Shown here one piece after another: positions 1,841 through 16,060 of a stretch of DNA of 16,766 nucleotides. A model generated the notes under the pieces. It saw only the letters and a list, made by a program, of their open reading frames with translations. It was not told where the DNA came from and did no database searches. Source of the stretch: Lachnospiraceae bacterium (GTDB lineage Bacteria > Bacillota > Clostridia > Lachnospirales > Lachnospiraceae). Each line of letters opens with the position of its first letter. Within the stretch, counting starts at the first letter, position 1. The position numbers were made by a program, and so were the translations under genes. The stretch is from the NCBI GenBank assembly GCA_021204285.1, contig JAJPZP010000016.1, forward strand, positions 1 through 16,766. The letters are read 5' to 3'.

Positions 1841-2881
1841 TTAAACGGATCCGCGGATCTTCTCCTGCTTTGCAAGCTGCCGGTCATGCTTTGCCATAAT
1901 CTCGATCAGCTCCTCGTAGCTGGTCTTCTGGGGATTCCAGCCAAGAACCGTCCTCGCCTTTGTCGGGTCGCCCAGGAGATTGTCCACATCCGTCGGGCGG
2001 AACCACTGCGGATTTACGTAGACCAGCATCCGGCCGGTCTCGGCGTCGTAGCCCTTTTCCTCCATGCCGCTGCCCTCCCAGCGGAGGGTAATGCCATTGG
2101 CCCGGAAGGCCTTCTCCGTGAAATCGCGAACCGTGTGCTGCATACCGGTGGCAATCACGAAGTCCTCCGGCCTGTCCTGCTGCATGATGAGCCACATGCA
2201 CTCGACGTAGTCCTTCGCATAGCCCCAGTCGCGCAGAGAATCCAAGTTGCCGAGCTCCAGATGATCCTGCAGACCCTCCGCAATCCGGCCGGCGGCCAGT
2301 GTGATTTTTCTGGTGACGAAGTTCTCGCCGCGGCGCTCGGACTCATGGTTGAACAGGATCCCATTCACGGCAAACATCCCGTAAGCCTCGCGATACTCCT
2401 TCGTGATCCAGAATCCATACTGCTTCGCGACCGCATAAGGACTGTAGGGATGAAACGGGGTGCTTTCCCTCTGGGGAATTTCCTCCACCTAGCCATACAG
2501 CTCAGAGGTGGATGCCTGGTATACCCTTGTTTTCTGAATCAGTCCGAGGATGCGGACCGCTTCCAGGACGCGCAGGACACCCAGCGCGTCCACATCACCG
2601 GAATACTCCGGCACGCCAAAGGAATCCTGCACATGGCTCTGCGCCGCAAGATTATAAATCTCATCCGGCTGAACAAGGGAGATAATGCGGATCAGGGAGA
2701 AGGAATCCGACAGGTCGCCATCGTGCAGGGTGATTCTGCTCATCAGATGATTAATACGACCGGTATTCGAAAGCGAAGCCCGACGGATAATGCCATGTAC
2801 CTCGTAGCCTTTTTCAAGCAGAAACTCCGCCAGATAAGAGCCATCCTGCCCTGTTATTCCTGTAATAAGCGCTGTTTTCAT
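1841..2881 (-). CDS. gmd: GDP-mannose 4,6-dehydratase, interrupted by an in-frame TAG at codon 131
   Basis: Dehydrates GDP-D-mannose to GDP-4-keto-6-deoxy-D-mannose with bound NADP, the committed step to GDP-L-fucose. The frame from an ATG at 2881 (GGAGGTG 3 bases upstream) to a TAA at 1841 has 346 codons before the stop, a normal length. It holds a single TAG at 2489-2491. The N-terminal part (130 residues) carries [13 protein letters not shown] and the active-site ASTSELYG with Thr125 and Glu127. The C-terminal part carries YSPYAVAK with the Tyr149-Lys153 pair, then [21 protein letters not shown] and [13 protein letters not shown]. The TAG therefore separates two halves of one active site, so neither half should work alone. 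No bases appear missing: ELYG-stop-VEEIPQ aligns with E. coli ELYGLVQEIPQ. Restart at the GTG directly after the TAG is possible on paper. Whether the gene is read through, dead, or miscalled at one base is open. Confidence 0.92.
2489..2491 (-). other. In-frame TAG codon inside gmd
   Basis: The minus-strand codons read CTG TAT GGC TAG GTG GAG GAA. Family homology runs on without a gap on either side of the TAG. Single-base changes from CAG (Gln), AAG (Lys) or TTG (Leu) would produce it; E. coli Gmd has Leu here. The context is nearly identical to that of the TAG inside dnaE. Confidence 0.95.
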
Positions 2882-2896
2882 AAACACCTCCAATAA

Positions 2897-3673
2897 TTAT
2901 CCATTGTCTCTCTGGTGGCAGGCCTCATACATCAGGATTGCCGCTGCCACCGACGCGTTCAACGACTCGAGCTTTCCGTGCATCGGGATGCGGATCAGAC
3001 GGTCGGCACAGGCGCTTAAGTCCGTCGTCAGACCGTTCCCCTCATTTCCGATCAGGAACGCACAGCCCTGCCGATAATCAGCCTTATCATAAGCGCTGGC
3101 TCCGTCGAGATGAGCTGCGTAGCTGCGAACGCCACGCGCCTTCAGCTCACGCAGGATTTCCTTCAGATCGTCCGCATAGAAAAAAGGTACCCGGTAAACA
3201 GAGCCCATGGTCGCGCGGATCGTCTTTGGATTATAGATGTCAACAGAATCAGAACTCAGGATAATACCATCCGCCCCCGCTCCTTCTGCGGTTCGGATGA
3301 TCGTACCGAGGTTCCCAGGATCCTGCAGATTTTCCAGAATTATAAGAAATGGATCCGGCCTTTTCGTAAGATCGACCAGTGTGTAATGAAAGCGTTCCAT
3401 CAGACACAGGACTCCCTGCGGCGTCTTCGTATCGCTGGCAGCCCGGTACACCCGGTCGTCCAGGATCTCCAGATCTGCATGTGGAAAAAAAGCCTGTCCC
3501 TTTTCCTCGTACAGGCTTTTTGATACATATATTTTCCGGATGCGCTCCGGCGGCGCTTCGAGGAGCATCTTTACGCCCTCCGCGAGGAAAACGCCCTGCT
3601 CCTTTCGCGCCGAGGATTTTTTCATGAGCTGCTGCAGATTTTTCACCTGCGGATTGGCTGTGCTTGTAATCAT
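2897..3673 (-). CDS. TrmH/SpoU-family RNA 2'-O-ribose methyltransferase
   Basis: A SPOUT-class enzyme predicted to methylate the 2'-hydroxyl of a ribose in rRNA or tRNA using S-adenosylmethionine. It is 258 residues long. An N-terminal substrate-binding region (residues 1-100, beginning ITSTANPQVKNLQQL and including FLAEGVKMLLEA) precedes the knotted methyltransferase domain. The three SpoU motifs are visible: ENLQDPGNLGTIIRTAEGAGA (114-134), FLIGNEGNGL (207-216) and IPMHGKLESLNASVAAAI (229-246). The ATG at 3673 overlaps the pfkA TGA as ATGA, which points to translational coupling; no strong ribosome site stands alone here. The stop is 15 bases before the gmd start. The exact target nucleotide cannot be read from sequence, so I give no gene symbol. 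A terminator-like hairpin lies inside the gene at 3487-3521. Confidence 0.9.
   Translation of the reverse strand: MITSTANPQVKNLQQLMKKSSARKEQGVFLAEGVKMLLEAPPERIRKIYVSKSLYEEKGQAFFPHADLEILDDRVYRAASDTKTPQGVLCLMERFHYTLVDLTKRPDPFLIILENLQDPGNLGTIIRTAEGAGADGIILSSDSVDIYNPKTIRATMGSVYRVPFFYADDLKEILRELKARGVRSYAAHLDGASAYDKADYRQGCAFLIGNEGNGLTTDLSACADRLIRIPMHGKLESLNASVAAAILMYEACHQRDNG
3487..3521 (-). other. Terminator-like hairpin inside the RNA methyltransferase gene
   Basis: An inverted repeat of 11 bp (aaaaagcctgt and acaggcttttt, arms 3487-3497 and 3511-3521) encloses a 13-base loop. On the minus strand the second arm ends in seven Ts. It lies about 150-190 bases into the coding sequence. It resembles an intrinsic terminator but sits in conserved reading frame, so active translation would normally mask it. 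Confidence 0.4.
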
Positions 3674-4644
3674 ACCGACATGTTCTTCGCTATTTTGATC
3701 ATATACTCGGAAACGCCCTTGTTCATGCCAAGCGCTTCATTGATATCATAGTCCTGGAATTTTCCATTCTGATAGCCGACTACGCGGTTCGTCTTCCCTT
3801 CACAGAGCAGATCCGCTGCCATCGCCCCCATCATCGTGGCATAGACGCGGTCCTTACAGGTCGGACTGCCACCGCGCTGCATATAGCCAAGGATCGTCGC
3901 CCTTGTCTCCACACCCGTAGCCGCTTCAATGCGCCTGGCCATCGAAGTAGAGTGCCCGATACCTTCCGCATTGATAATGATGTGATGCTTCTTCCCACGC
4001 TTGCGGCTGACGACAATGTGATTGATGATGCGCTGCTCATCGTAATCATAAGTCTCCGGGATCAGAATATCCTCCGCACCGTTTGCGATGCCGCACCAGA
4101 GTGCGATATAACCCGCGTCACGTCCCATCACTTCTATAATACTCACACGCTCATGTGAAGTCGAAGTGTCGCGCACCTTGTCGATCGCCTCCATGGCTGT
4201 GTTCACTGCCGTGTCAAAGCCAATCGTATACTCGGTACAGGCAATATCAAGGTCAATCGTTCCCGGAACACCTACTGTATTAATTCCCTGTGCTGCCAGC
4301 TTCTGCGCGCCGGCAAAAGAACCATCACCGCCGATCACAACCAGACCGTCAATCTCATTTTTCCTGCAGATCTCAGCGCCTTTTTTCTGCCCTTCCTCCG
4401 TCCGGAACTCTGCACAGCGAGCCGTGAGCAGGAAGGTTCCACCTTTATCAATCGTCTCGCTGACAGACTCCCTCGTAAGCTCTACGATATCTTCCTCCAG
4501 GAGCCCCTGATAACCTCTGCGTATTCCTTTTACCTTTTTGCCATTCGCAAGCGCCTCACGCACCACACCGCGGATCGCCGCATTCATACCCGGCGCATCG
4601 CCGCCACTCGTCAGGACGCCTATTGTATTCACTTCATTCGCCAT
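3670..4644 (-). CDS. pfkA: ATP-dependent 6-phosphofructokinase
   Basis: Phosphorylates fructose-6-phosphate to fructose-1,6-bisphosphate, the committed step of glycolysis. The protein is 324 residues, the usual length for bacterial PfkA. Visible motifs are the ATP loop TSGGDAPGMNAA (12-23), IGGDGS (104-109), the catalytic PGTIDLD segment (127-133) with Asp131 and Asp133, IEVMGRDAGYIALW, and QRGGSPTCKDR. Gly after GGD indicates ATP rather than pyrophosphate as donor, since PPi-dependent enzymes carry GGDD. Leu replaces the Asn of the common TIDND. I chose the ATG at 4644 because GGAGGA lies 6 bases upstream; the frame extends 10 codons further but without a ribosome site. It starts 47 bases after the dnaE stop and its TGA overlaps the methyltransferase ATG. 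dnaE-pfkA adjacency is common in clostridia. Confidence 0.96.
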   Translation of the reverse strand: MANEVNTIGVLTSGGDAPGMNAAIRGVVREALANGKKVKGIRRGYQGLLEEDIVELTRESVSETIDKGGTFLLTARCAEFRTEEGQKKGAEICRKNEIDGLVVIGGDGSFAGAQKLAAQGINTVGVPGTIDLDIACTEYTIGFDTAVNTAMEAIDKVRDTSTSHERVSIIEVMGRDAGYIALWCGIANGAEDILIPETYDYDEQRIINHIVVSRKRGKKHHIIINAEGIGHSTSMARRIEAATGVETRATILGYMQRGGSPTCKDRVYATMMGAMAADLLCEGKTNRVVGYQNGKFQDYDINEALGMNKGVSEYMIKIAKNMSV

Positions 4645-4691
4645 ATCATTTCCTCCGAAAACAACAGCCTGCAATTTTCAGTCTAAAACAT

Positions 4692-7600
4692 TTACGCCTT
4701 ATTTTCAACTGGCTTTTCAACCAGCTTCACATTTTTTTCGCCAAAGCGGGCATACAGCCGGCCGAGCAGTTCTTCGTCCGCTTTCACATTCCGGCCTGCA
4801 GGGAGAACCTTTTTCTGCCGTTCTTTCCGCACGTAGATGACAACGGAATCCTCTCCCCTGCTGTCCGCGAGCAGGTGATAGAGCTCCTGCTCACACGCAC
4901 CGTACTCCTCCAGATCCGCAAACTGTATCCACATTTCCTTCCGGGGCTTCTCAAAAGGTGTGATCTTCTCAAGAATCAGCTTGCTCGCCTTGTCGAGCTC
5001 TGCGGAGACACGGCCGCTGACAAAAACCATACTGTCCACATTCAGCTGTCTGCCATACTTCTCATAATCACGCGGGAAGACAATCACCTCCACGGAACCT
5101 GCCATATCTTCCACATTGATGAAGGCCATCATCTTGTTATTCTTCGTCGCCTTCACCGTTCTGGATGTGATCATACCGCCAATCGTTGCGCGCTCGCCGT
5201 CGCGCAGCTTTTCATCTTCATCATCTTCGGGCGGCAGAAAATCCGTGGAAACATGGCTGATCTTCCGGCGCCACTGCTCCTCATACTCCTCCATCGGATG
5301 ACCACTGATATAGAAACCCAGCACTTCCTTTTCCAGTGAGAGCAGCTCCTCTTTCCCATACTCCGGCACCTGCGGAACCCGAACCTTAAATGATGCCTTA
5401 TCTTCCTCCGGGGCGAAGTCAAACAGACTCATCTGGCCTGCGAACTCCGTCTTTTTCTTCCGCGTCGCCTCGTCTACGATCTGTTCATACACGCTCACCA
5501 TCTGATGGCGGTTCAACGGAAAACTGTCAAAAGCCCCTGCCTTGATAAAGTTTTCGATTGCACGCTTATTCAGCTCCTTGCCCGCGGTCCGCTCGATAAA
5601 ATCTTCGAGATCTTTATAAAGCCCATGCTCTTCTCTCTCCCGGATAATCTCTGCAATCACCGGTTTTCCAACGCTCTTGATTGCCGTCAGGCCATAGCGA
5701 ATCGCACCATTTGACACGGAAAACACACCAACGCTCTCATTGATATCGGGAGGCAGAATACGGATCCCCATCTGACGGCAGCTCGCAATATACTCCGATA
5801 CTTTCGTCGAGTTGTCAATGACCGAGGTCAGAAGCGCGGCCATATACTCCACCGGATAATAATACTTCAGCCAGGCCGTCTGGTAGGAGACCACCGCGTA
5901 GGCCGCCGCATGGGACTTATTGAACGCATACTCCGCAAAGTCCATCATCTCATCATAGATCTTGTTGGCGACCGCCTCGGGAATTCCCCTCGCGATACAT
6001 CCCGGAACGCCCTCCTCCTCCTAGCCGTAGACGAAACTCTGACGCTCTTTCTTCATGACCGAGGCCTTCTTCTTTGACATGGCACGGCGCACGAGATCCG
6101 CCCGTCCCAGCGTATAACCGGCCAGTTGCTGCACGATCTGCATGACCTGCTCCTGATAGACAATACAGCCGTAGGTAGGCTTCAGGATCGGCTCCAGCTC
6201 CGGACAGTCGTAAGTGACCTGATCCGGATGGTTCTTGCCTCGGATATACTGTGGAATGAACTGCATGGGACCCGGGCGGTACAGGGAGATACCGGCGATC
6301 AGATCCTCGAGGCTCTGCGGTTTGAGCTCTTTCATGAAGCTCTTCATCCCCGCGCTTTCAAGCTGAAACACGCCGTCGGTTTTTCCGGTTCCAAGGGAGT
6401 CCAGCACCTTCTGATCCTGATAATCAATCCGGTCGATATCGATCTTTGTCCCGCTGCTCTTTTCCGCCATCTCCACCGCGTTCTGGATCACAGTCAGCGT
6501 TCGAAGACCCAGGAAATCCATTTTCAGAAGCCCCAGCTCCTCCAACGTCGTCATCGTGAACTGCGTCGTGACCGAGCCGTCCTGTGCCCGCGAGAGCGGC
6601 ACATACTCATCCACAGATTTCTGGCTGATCACGACGCCAGCCGCGTGCGTGGAGGCATGCCGCGGCAGCCCTTCCAGACGTTTGGACATGTCCACGAGCT
6701 CCTTTACCTGCTCGTTCGTCTCATAGAGATTTCGCAGCTCAGGATTCACCTGCAGCGCACGGTCCAGTGTGATGTTCAGTTCGCGCGGCACCATCTTCGC
6801 AATCGAATCGACAAAGGCGTAAGGCATATCCATAACGCGGCCCACGTCTTTCAGCACCGCGCGCGCCGCCAGCGTCCCGAAGGTGACGATCTGCGCCACC
6901 CGATCCTTACCGTACTTGCGGACAACATAATCAATAACCTCCTGCCTGCGCTCGAAGCAGAAATCCACGTCAATATCAGGCATTGACACGCGTTCCGGGT
7001 TCAGAAAGCGCTCGAAAAGCAGCTGGTATCTGGCCGGATCGATATTCGTGATCCCGAGGGAATATGAGACAAGGCTTCCGGCCGCCGACCCTCTGCCCGG
7101 CCCGACCGCAATGCCATTATCCCTGGCAAATTTTATAAAATCCCAGACGATCAGGAAGTAATCGACATAGCCCATCGTCTGAATGATCGAAAGCTCATAG
7201 TCGAGCTGCTTTCGCAGCGTGCCGTCATCATCCGGGTAAGGCTCCGCAAATCCCTCTGTGCACAGCTTGTTCAGGTATTCCCAGGAAGTGTAGCCGTCCG
7301 GCACATCGTACTGCGGCAGCTTCGTCACGCCGAACTCAATCTCTACATTGCAGCGATCCGCGATCTTCTGCGTATTCTCCAGTGCCTGCGGCGCGTAACG
7401 GAAAAGCTCCGCCATCTCCTCCTGCGATTTTACAAAATACTGCCCGCCCTCATAGCGCATGCGGTCCTCATCTGCCAGGCGCTTGCCGGTCTGCAGACAA
7501 AGCAGGATGTCATGCGGCTTTTCGTCCTCCGCGTAAGTATAGTGTACGTCGTTCGTCGCCACCAGTTCAATGCCGAGTTCCCGGCTCATCCGCAGAAGGC

Positions 7601-8165
7601 CCTGATTTACCTGTTTCTGCTCCGGAATACCGTGATCCTGCAGCTCCAGGAAGAATTTTCCTTTTCCGAAAATATCCTCGTAACGCTTCGCGGCAGCACA
7701 GGCCTCCTCGTATTGATCCTTCTCAATATAGCGCTGCACCTCCCCCGCGAGGCAGGCACTCGTTGCGATAATCCCCTCGTGATAACGTGCGAGCACCTCA
7801 CGGTCCACGCGGGGTTTATAATAAAAGCCTTCCGTATAACCGATGGACACAATCTTCATCAGGTTCTGATAACCCCGGTTATTTTCTGCCAGAAGCACCA
7901 GATGATAATAGCGATCCTCCCCGCCGGTCGTCTCCTTGTCAAAGCGGGAATTCGGCGCAACGTAAACCTCGCAGCCCAGGATCGGCTTAATGCCCTGCGC
8001 TTTCGCTTCCTTATAAAAATCAATCACGCCAAACATCGCGCCGTGATCCGTGATCGCTGCGCTGTCCATGCCCAGCTCCTTCACCCGCGCTACGTATTCC
8101 GTGATCTTGTTCGAACCGTCCAGCAGACTGTACTCCGTGTGTACATGAAGATGCACAAAACCCAT
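4692..8165 (-). CDS. dnaE: DNA polymerase III alpha subunit (DnaE), interrupted by an in-frame TAG at codon 715
   Basis: Replicative C-family DNA polymerase. The full frame gives 1157 residues including the TAG position, normal for Firmicutes DnaE. Order of domains: PHP domain (HLHVHTEYSLLDG at 5-17, ITDHGAMFG at 38-46); palm with VGPGRGSAAGS (354-364), PDIDVDFC (396-403) and KMDFLGL (548-554), giving catalytic Asp397/399 or 399/401 and Asp550; fingers with YRPGPMQFIPQYI and YGCIVYQEQVM; then FNKSHAAAYAVVSYQTAWLKYYYPVEY; helix-hairpin-helix region; and a C-terminal OB fold near ATIGGMITSRTVKATKN. A TAG at 6021-6023 interrupts the fingers region after FVYG. The continuing frame (EEEGVPGCIARG) keeps family homology without a gap. 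The catalytic aspartates and the FNKSHAAAYA block fall on opposite sides. The ATG at 8165 fits the usual DnaE start; its ribosome site is poor. Confidence 0.95.
6021..6023 (-). other. In-frame TAG codon inside dnaE
   Basis: Minus-strand codons read GTC TAC GGC TAG GAG GAG GAG GGC. DnaE homology continues on both sides with no missing residues. CAG or AAG are one base away. Fifteen of 17 bases match the context of the gmd TAG. GGAGGAG follows directly, which resembles a ribosome-binding sequence. Confidence 0.95.
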
Positions 8166-9377: not shown

Positions 9378-10079
9378 CTAGCGAAATTCTATCACAGCAT
9401 AAGGCTTTCCATCCGGATCATCCAGAGCGATGGTAGCGGTCTGTCCGTTCATGCTCACCTTCGGGCAGATCTGGTCATTCAGCTTTGCAGACTTCCGGTA
9501 TTCCGCCCGCATCTGGTGGATCTGGAAATCTTCCGGCAAATACTCCGCCGCCATCAGCACATACTGACCATTGTTCACGTGATGGTTTACATCCAGCTGA
9601 TGCCTGATCACCAGAAAAGGCTCCTCCTCGCGCATCCCATCGGGAAGTGCGATATGCCCTTCCTCGTACTCCATGGCAAGCTTCGGATCGATCTCATAAG
9701 CCCCGCTCACATCCGCTTCCAGCCTGCAGGGCCGCGCACGCTCCGTATTCATATAGACCCAATAAGAGTCAGCGAAAGCCAGCACCGCTCCCTGCCCGTC
9801 CAGCATACGGAAATTTCTGCTCCCCGTCATTTTCCCGAAAGCGTAGGGCCATGTCTCAACCCGGATGCGTTCCGCCATCTTCGGATAACGATTGATCACA
9901 ATTTTCCAGGAGCTCAGCACCCACATCCGCTTCCGGCTCTCCAGAAAACTCATTCCGACGCCACGATCCTCCGAATGAAAGATGCTGCAATCCTGAAACT
10001 GATTCAGCACACCGATCAGCGTCATCCGCTGATACTGATCCGCCTCCGTCATTCTCACTCTGGTGTCATATCCATACAT
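9378..10079 (-). CDS. Acyl-ACP thioesterase (FatA/FatB family, double hotdog)
   Basis: Hydrolyses acyl-acyl carrier protein to free fatty acid, a side branch of type II fatty-acid synthesis seen in many clostridia. The protein is 233 residues with two hotdog halves. The first half has EADQYQRMTLIGVLNQFQD and the long helix with WVLSSWKIVINRYP; the second has the active-site stretch LDVNHHVNNGQYV, giving Asp163, Asn165 and His167 in the DxNxHVNN pattern. I chose the ATG at 10079 because AAGGAGG lies 8 bases upstream; a start 10 codons earlier has no ribosome site. It is the first gene of a two-gene unit with cvfB and is transcribed divergently from the plus-strand PBP. The stop TAG overlaps the cvfB ribosome site (CTAGGAG) and is one of only three CTAG tetramers I found. 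If that TAG were CAG, the protein would gain 14 residues before a TGA. Confidence 0.85.
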   Translation of the reverse strand: MYGYDTRVRMTEADQYQRMTLIGVLNQFQDCSIFHSEDRGVGMSFLESRKRMWVLSSWKIVINRYPKMAERIRVETWPYAFGKMTGSRNFRMLDGQGAVLAFADSYWVYMNTERARPCRLEADVSGAYEIDPKLAMEYEEGHIALPDGMREEEPFLVIRHQLDVNHHVNNGQYVLMAAEYLPEDFQIHQMRAEYRKSAKLNDQICPKVSMNGQTATIALDDPDGKPYAVIEFR

Positions 10080-14863: not shown

Positions 14864-16060
14864 TCACTTTAACACCTCAATCGCCCTCTGTAACTGGTTG
14901 TCTTCCTCATTCTGCGTATCCGCCTCCAGGACAATATCCGGGGTAATGCCCACTTCATGGATATTATTGCCGGACGGCGTATAATATCTTGAAACTGTAA
15001 TTTTAATCGCGGAACCGTCGCTGAGTGGAATCAGACTCTGCACAATTCCCTTGCCATAGGTCTGTGTCCCGATCAGCGTTCCCACACCATAATCCTGAAT
15101 TGCACCTGCAAAAATCTCCGAAGCACTCGCGGTATTGCCATTCACGAGAATGACCATCTCCCCGTCAAAATAATTCTCAGCATCAGAATACTCTTCTTCC
15201 CTGTTTCCGTATTTGTCCTCCGTATAGACAATCAAGCCCTCCGGAAGCAGGGAATCCAGAATTGTGCAGGTCACATCAACAAGACCGCCTCCATTGTCCC
15301 TGAGATCGATGATCAGGCTTTCCATACCCTGAGACCCGAGATCTTCCAGTGCGCTCGCAAACTGCTCATCCGTCACGTCATCAAACTCCGTGATCGCGAT
15401 ATAGCCGATCGCATCTTCCAGCATCTCATACTCGACAGTCGGAACCTCGATACTGGCACGGGTGATTGTCATCTCGAGCACCTCGCTTCCACGAACTATG
15501 CTGATATTTACATCTGTACCTTCCTCACCCTTCAGGTCTACAACTACAAGGCTGAGGTCAATACCTGTGACTTCCTCCCCTTCCACCATGTAAAGGATAT
15601 CGTCCGCCTGCAGTCCGGCCGATTCCGCGGGCGAACCCTCAAAGGTACTCACCACCGTGATGAGGCCCGTGCTGTAATCCTGCTGCAGCGTAGCTCCAAT
15701 TCCGCTGTAGCTCCCGCTGGAGCTCTCAAGAAAGCTCGCATATTCCTCCGCCGTATAATAGCAGGTGTAGGGATCACCAAGGCCGTCCATCATGCCCTTG
15801 TAAATACTCTCCTCCACATCCTCCTCGTCATAATCAAACAGATAGTAGGCATCAATATAACTCTGCAGCTCCTCCATCTTTTCTGCCAGCTGACTCTCCG
15901 ATGAGTCGGAAGACGTCGAGCCGGAGCTCAGGCCTGCAAGCCCAAGCCGGACGAGAAGAGACGAGGCTCCGCAACCGCCTAAAAACATCACCATGACGCA
16001 CAAAAGGGCTACGCACACCAGCCCTTTTCCGAAGGAATGACTTCCCCGATTTTTTTTCAT
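14864..16060 (-). CDS. CtpA/CtpB-type carboxy-terminal processing protease (S41) with a lipobox
   Basis: Secreted serine protease of family S41, 398 residues. The signal sequence (MKKNRGSHSFGKG plus a hydrophobic stretch at 14-28) ends in FLGGC, a lipobox with Cys30, so it is probably a lipoprotein anchored to the outer face of the membrane. A Ser-rich linker follows (about 44-56). The PDZ domain is at about 118-190 (SGIGATL, AESAGLQADDILYMVEG). The protease domain shows DLRDNGGG (252-259), NTASASEIFAGA (309-320) with catalytic Ser312, and TYGKGIVQ (334-341) with Lys337 and Gln341, matching the Ser/Lys/Gln spacing of B. subtilis CtpB. GAGGAG lies 9 bases before the chosen ATG at 16060. It sits between an M23 hydrolase and a PBP, so a role in processing wall enzymes is plausible. 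CtpB itself acts in sporulation signalling; that role here is not shown. Confidence 0.92.
   Translation of the reverse strand: MKKNRGSHSFGKGLVCVALLCVMVMFLGGCGASSLLVRLGLAGLSSGSTSSDSSESQLAEKMEELQSYIDAYYLFDYDEEDVEESIYKGMMDGLGDPYTCYYTAEEYASFLESSSGSYSGIGATLQQDYSTGLITVVSTFEGSPAESAGLQADDILYMVEGEEVTGIDLSLVVVDLKGEEGTDVNISIVRGSEVLEMTITRASIEVPTVEYEMLEDAIGYIAITEFDDVTDEQFASALEDLGSQGMESLIIDLRDNGGGLVDVTCTILDSLLPEGLIVYTEDKYGNREEEYSDAENYFDGEMVILVNGNTASASEIFAGAIQDYGVGTLIGTQTYGKGIVQSLIPLSDGSAIKITVSRYYTPSGNNIHEVGITPDIVLEADTQNEEDNQLQRAIEVLK

Follow-up and report, generated by a model that had tools for sequence, protein, structure and literature searches.

In-frame TAG codons in a shared sequence context in gmd and dnaE of a draft Lachnospiraceae-like genome

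INTRODUCTION

One contig of a draft Lachnospiraceae-like genome carries two conserved genes, gmd and dnaE, each of which is interrupted by an in-frame TAG codon, and the bases surrounding the two stops are nearly the same. Are these TAG codons read through by the cell, does their context attract mutations or sequencing errors, or are they isolated changes that came to lie in similar surroundings? A sequence-only reading of this DNA had proposed that such a shared context, if not coincidental, points to a common cause, namely a read-through context, a mutation hotspot or a platform-specific error motif.

We analysed this stretch of 16,766 nucleotides (hereafter the window) together with the genome to which it belongs. 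The window is one contig of a 2.19-Mb draft (G000) comprising 272 contigs and estimated to be 88.5% complete. The nearest named matches of its dnaE (95–98%) come from four Lachnospiraceae metagenome-assembled genomes. Sixteen other genomes of the same genus were used for comparison, with G010 as the main relative for two-way comparisons. Beyond the window, 60 stretches amounting to 474 kb (∼22% of the genome) were sampled; the 61-piece sample is non-random, as several contigs were chosen since an earlier scan had named them.

RESULTS

The TAG codons in gmd and dnaE are private to this genome

The gmd gene (GDP-mannose 4,6-dehydratase) occupies positions 1841..2881 of the minus strand and has its TAG at 2489..2491. 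Its frame runs on beyond the stop (346 aa with one TAG inside), and the match to the NCBIfam model TIGR01472 (residues 2–335) spans the stop. The same is true for dnaE (DNA polymerase III alpha subunit; 4692..8165, minus strand), where the TAG lies at 6021..6023 within a frame of 1157 aa that is otherwise uninterrupted, and the TIGR00594 match (residues 3–1030) extends across it.

We observed that neither stop is present in the relatives. All 13 same-genus orthologues of gmd have Lys at this position, and the TAG is one base change away from the nearest of their codons. For dnaE, a full-length match was found in 15 of the 16 other same-genus genomes (the exception being G012), and none of them has this stop. 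Asn was aligned at the site in all the 15, for 12 of which the codons were read, and the TAG is two base changes away from these Asn codons. In a wider set, in which 77 of 80 loci could be scored, the residue was Asn in 73, Asp in three and Cys in one. G016 has a TAG of its own in dnaE, five residues short of the aligned end. Among the more distant genomes, one stop was counted somewhere within the dnaE match of each of G019 (TGA), G042 (TAA) and G048 (TAG). On two contigs of G021 (C43 and C44), a full dnaE is accompanied by numerous partial dnaE-like matches in either orientation, several of them stop-rich.

Apart from the stop, dnaE carries three private replacements, compared to five in G016 at a similar divergence, and hence no excess. 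In these alignments, dnaE is otherwise as conserved as its orthologues, which fits a functioning gene under continued selection whose stop is either spurious or was acquired very recently. Conservation of gmd was judged by eye. It has three further private residues at positions where the other 13 sequences agree, as if constraint were relaxed, and a close match of this gene is absent in G001, G008 and G016. Therefore, gmd may be dispensable and truly decaying in this genome. These features of gmd would favour the view that the stops are real nonsense alleles in the sampled population, either pseudogenes or alleles of a minority strain. We consider this quite unlikely as a general explanation, because dnaE is otherwise normally conserved and because dnaE, as well as enolase and gatB (interrupted elsewhere in this genome, see below), is hardly dispensable to a cell and, from general knowledge, not easily lost.

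The similarity of the two contexts is mostly inherited

On the minus strand, the context of the gmd stop reads TATGGCTAGGTGGAGGA (2481..2497, read 2497–2481) and that of dnaE reads TACGGCTAGGAGGAGGA (6013..6029, read 6029–6013). The near identity reported by the sequence-only reading is correct, with 15 of the 17 bases in agreement. Its description of both sites as Tyr-Gly-stop followed by acidic residues holds for dnaE; in gmd, the stop is followed by Val-Glu-Glu and so is not acidic at once. The similar site without a stop that it had pointed out in a ctpA-like S41 peptidase gene, TATGGCAAGG, is indeed intact, and lies at 15049..15058 of the minus strand (15058–15049, rather than 15060–15051).

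The corresponding stop-free sites, taken from dnaE of G010 and gmd of G011, are already identical at 14 of 17 bases (counted manually from the codons), since each gene, when uninterrupted, specifies Tyr-Gly-(Asn or Lys)-X-Glu here in similar codons. Therefore, the similarity is mostly inherited and older than the stops. Even so, such a likeness is rare among random pairs of coding sites from the sampled genome: this flank similarity was reached with P = 6e-5 when the codons drawn were a single step away from TAG, and with P = 0.0017 when any codon was allowed. A free-window score for the context pair gave P = 0.0004–0.002. What remains after inheritance is taken into account is that both stops landed on such similar sites.

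A third in-frame stop occurs in the same context

In the 2.19 Mb of the genome we found nine GGCTAGG sites, compared to 415 for the reversed control. Natural GGCTAGG is scarce because CTAG is depleted about sixfold (observed/expected of 0.163 in the sample of this genome and 0.158 in that of G010). Three of the nine sites are in-frame internal stops, namely those of gmd and dnaE and one beyond the window, while the remaining six, inspected by eye, interrupt no recognisable frame. The third stop is also a Tyr-Gly-TAG and lies in a gene for an acyl-CoA dehydratase activator (contig C252 of G000, positions 9865–9867; L317 and L356), inside an open frame of ∼1420 aa. This gene is stop-free in 14 of the 16 same-genus genomes, the other two having either no match or a partial match only, and G010 has Glu in place of the stop.

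The extended motif TAYGGCTAGG occurs three times in this genome, each time as an in-frame internal stop, and four times across the 16 other same-genus genomes, never within a long frame. Of the 62 sites of the relaxed motif TAYGGNTAR, 56 were read, and among these the three TAY-GGC-TAG stops alone are flanked by long open frames upstream and downstream. All three have T directly after GGC, where the relatives have a purine. These observations could be accounted for by a context-specific error or hotspot that turns the codon after TAY-GGC into TAG if G follows, whether of technical (base calling, error correction or template switching) or biological origin. If the genome contained 30–100 interruptions, a range extrapolated from about ten in 474 kb, 0.016–0.054 TAY-GGC-TAG cases would be expected. 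Only one of the three sites counts as a test, since the other two had given rise to the idea. For one new case, P is 0.016–0.053 for TAY-GGC-TAG and 0.13–0.36 for the looser GGC-TAG-G. We regard this excess as suggestive, not strong.

Other data speak against such a context effect. A similar site is intact in ctpA, as are GGCAAGG-type sites, which may or may not be in frame, in contigs C96 and C180. In a 146-kb alignment to one relative, the balance of purine-to-T differences behind GGC (52 versus 39) was no more lopsided than that over all contexts (1164 versus 922), and, compared with G010, the genome as a whole is shifted towards A and T. Thus, no special purine-to-T excess after GGC was found in this alignment, the 13% divergence of which would hide a weak effect. 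GGC-associated and systematic Illumina errors resemble the present sites in that the changed base follows GGC, in the window as well as in C252. The published systematic errors are mostly T to G, compared to purine to T here, and the GGC error was not observed where an AT-rich triplet came next (PMC3295828, PMC3431227). We also considered two-colour base calling and oxidative damage, and by reasoning neither fitted all three sites together. Taken together, we judge a context-specific error or mutation to be a somewhat unlikely main cause of the stops.

Interrupted genes are scattered over the genome in other contexts

In the 474-kb sample we identified ten further interrupted genes. The residue preceding the stop was never Gly, and none of these stops follows GGC. 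Family models span the TAG stops of an alpha/beta hydrolase, an RpoD-like sigma factor, an enolase and a RepA_N protein, the TAA stop of gatB, and the TGA stops of a phosphoglucomutase/phosphomannomutase and an XdhB-like FAD subunit. In spoIIIAG (TAG), the family match lies on the far side of the stop, with two stretches, and the interruption is also backed by relatives. In a UvrD-like helicase gene, the TAG falls ∼12 residues short of where the alignment with G010 ends. The tenth, a candidate kept by eye, is a putative adaptor-like gene in L092 (TAG). The names of eight of the interrupted genes rest on family scans. In the enolase locus (L064), Ns and an apparent frame break were seen shortly upstream of the TAG, with more stops downstream.

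These ten were retained from 15 printed candidates; the other five (L076, L073, L086, L052 and L074) looked like gene ends or antisense frames on visual inspection and were dropped. A scan that used coding scores to find stops with coding sequence on each flank was abandoned, as its 146 candidates were swamped by antisense frames, and a stricter Markov scan missed dnaE itself. A frame-competition scan (58 candidates here, 109 in G010) served for nomination only, most of its rows being natural gene ends that were removed by eye.

For six of the interrupted genes, we looked for counterparts in the five closest genomes. All five have stop-free versions of the hydrolase, gatB and enolase genes, and spoIIIAG is stop-free in all four genomes where it was found. 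For the sigma factor, the nearest match (G013) carries a TGA itself and the match in G001 is stop-free. The phosphoglucomutase/phosphomannomutase yielded only paralogues at ≤65% in these five genomes.

Together with the two genes of the window, the stops comprise nine TAG, one TAA and two TGA. Single base changes acting on the codon usage of this genome are expected to give a TAG share of 52–60%, so nine of 12 is unremarkable (∼0.1 by our own arithmetic). Frame changes were seen in five of 88 aligned ORFs, compared to one of 102 in the reverse comparison with G010. Before sorting, the numbers of flanked stops were 10 here and five in G010, antisense-looking ones being set aside by eye afterwards. 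The contrast with G010 is therefore modest, and G010, also a draft, has breaks of its own. A few internal stops seem to be present in it as well (L219, L237 and L244).

Components for reading TAG as a sense codon were not found

The presence of TAG in genes that a cell should need, with the frame continuing at high identity, could mean that TAG is read through by amber suppression, partial reassignment or pyrrolysine insertion. Reassignment or suppression of TAG reportedly occurs in crAss-like phages and in pyrrolysine bacteria, and the in-frame TAG inside conserved genes is common to those systems and to the present case. In other respects this genome differs from them. RF1 is intact, stop-free and above the NCBIfam cut-off. 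A CUA anticodon was absent among the 25 typed tRNA genes; this set is not complete, and two of the 27 Rfam matches have no assigned type. The only match to PF01409, a single frame of 368 aa, was read as PheS, so no PylS match was obtained, although the absence of PylS is not certain because the genome is 88.5% complete. TAG also ends genes, terminating 65 of 380 long coding-like frames (a few of these being the interruptions themselves) as well as the thioesterase gene of the window. The residues at the TAG sites are inconsistent in the relatives (Asn, Lys, Glu and Gln), the stops are private to one genome, and TAA and TGA interruptions are present alongside TAG. We consider reading of TAG as sense to be highly improbable.

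DISCUSSION

The genome-wide scan for GGCTAGG suggested by the sequence-only reading did bring out a third in-frame case; the ten other interruptions listed in the 474-kb sample, whether TAG, TAA or TGA, lack the GGC context. A common cause is thus borne out in part only. GGCTAGG is rare and three of its nine sites are in-frame stops, but ten other stops lie elsewhere in context, the flanks are mostly inherited, no excess after GGC was observed in the aligned 146 kb, and no machinery for read-through was found in the draft. It follows that read-through is improbable, and that no one motif predominates. A small context effect may or may not operate besides the scattered stops.

We propose that both TAG codons are isolated, private base changes in a draft genome with many interrupted ordinary genes, and that they probably arose by consensus or assembly error. 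Low or uneven read depth would lead to such errors and these, in turn, to scattered false stops; a few of the stops, that of gmd for instance, may be real broken alleles. Most likely, the living cell had a whole dnaE. We infer both the low read depth and the absence of the dnaE stop from the living cell. Internal stops in assemblies have been described as often being errors that are commoner at low coverage (PMC11017572). As expected of assembly error, the internal stops seen here are confined to this one assembly, and near relatives have the genes intact. The spurious pseudogenes treated in that report (PMC11017572) likewise involve private internal stops and frame breaks across conserved genes in a fragmented draft; here, unlike those, three stops share one context. 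A literature search for papers on internal stops in metagenome-assembled genomes yielded none.

Several points count against draft error. A third Tyr-Gly-TAG was found where ∼0.02–0.05 further cases were expected. If errors were rare and independent, two within one dnaE codon would be improbable. Nor does the dnaE alignment show the excess of missense changes that a heavy local load of errors would bring. The contrast with G010 is modest, and stops were also counted within the dnaE matches of three more distant genomes (G019, G042 and G048). A bolder idea is that TAY-GGC, a codon and G form a true hotspot of this lineage, at which a local, perhaps templated change would write TAG into needed genes and create the otherwise avoided CTAG, the cell surviving by mixed alleles or weak read-through; we hold this to be very doubtful.

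Inherited coding similarity combined with draft-genome errors can mimic a signal of recoding. Should the small TAY-GGC-TAG excess be borne out by reads, it would indicate an error or mutation tied to this context, and would call for caution when such genomes are mined for stop-codon recoding. The stops of this genome have the appearance of errors spread over a draft, or of broken gene copies, rather than of a new reading of the code.
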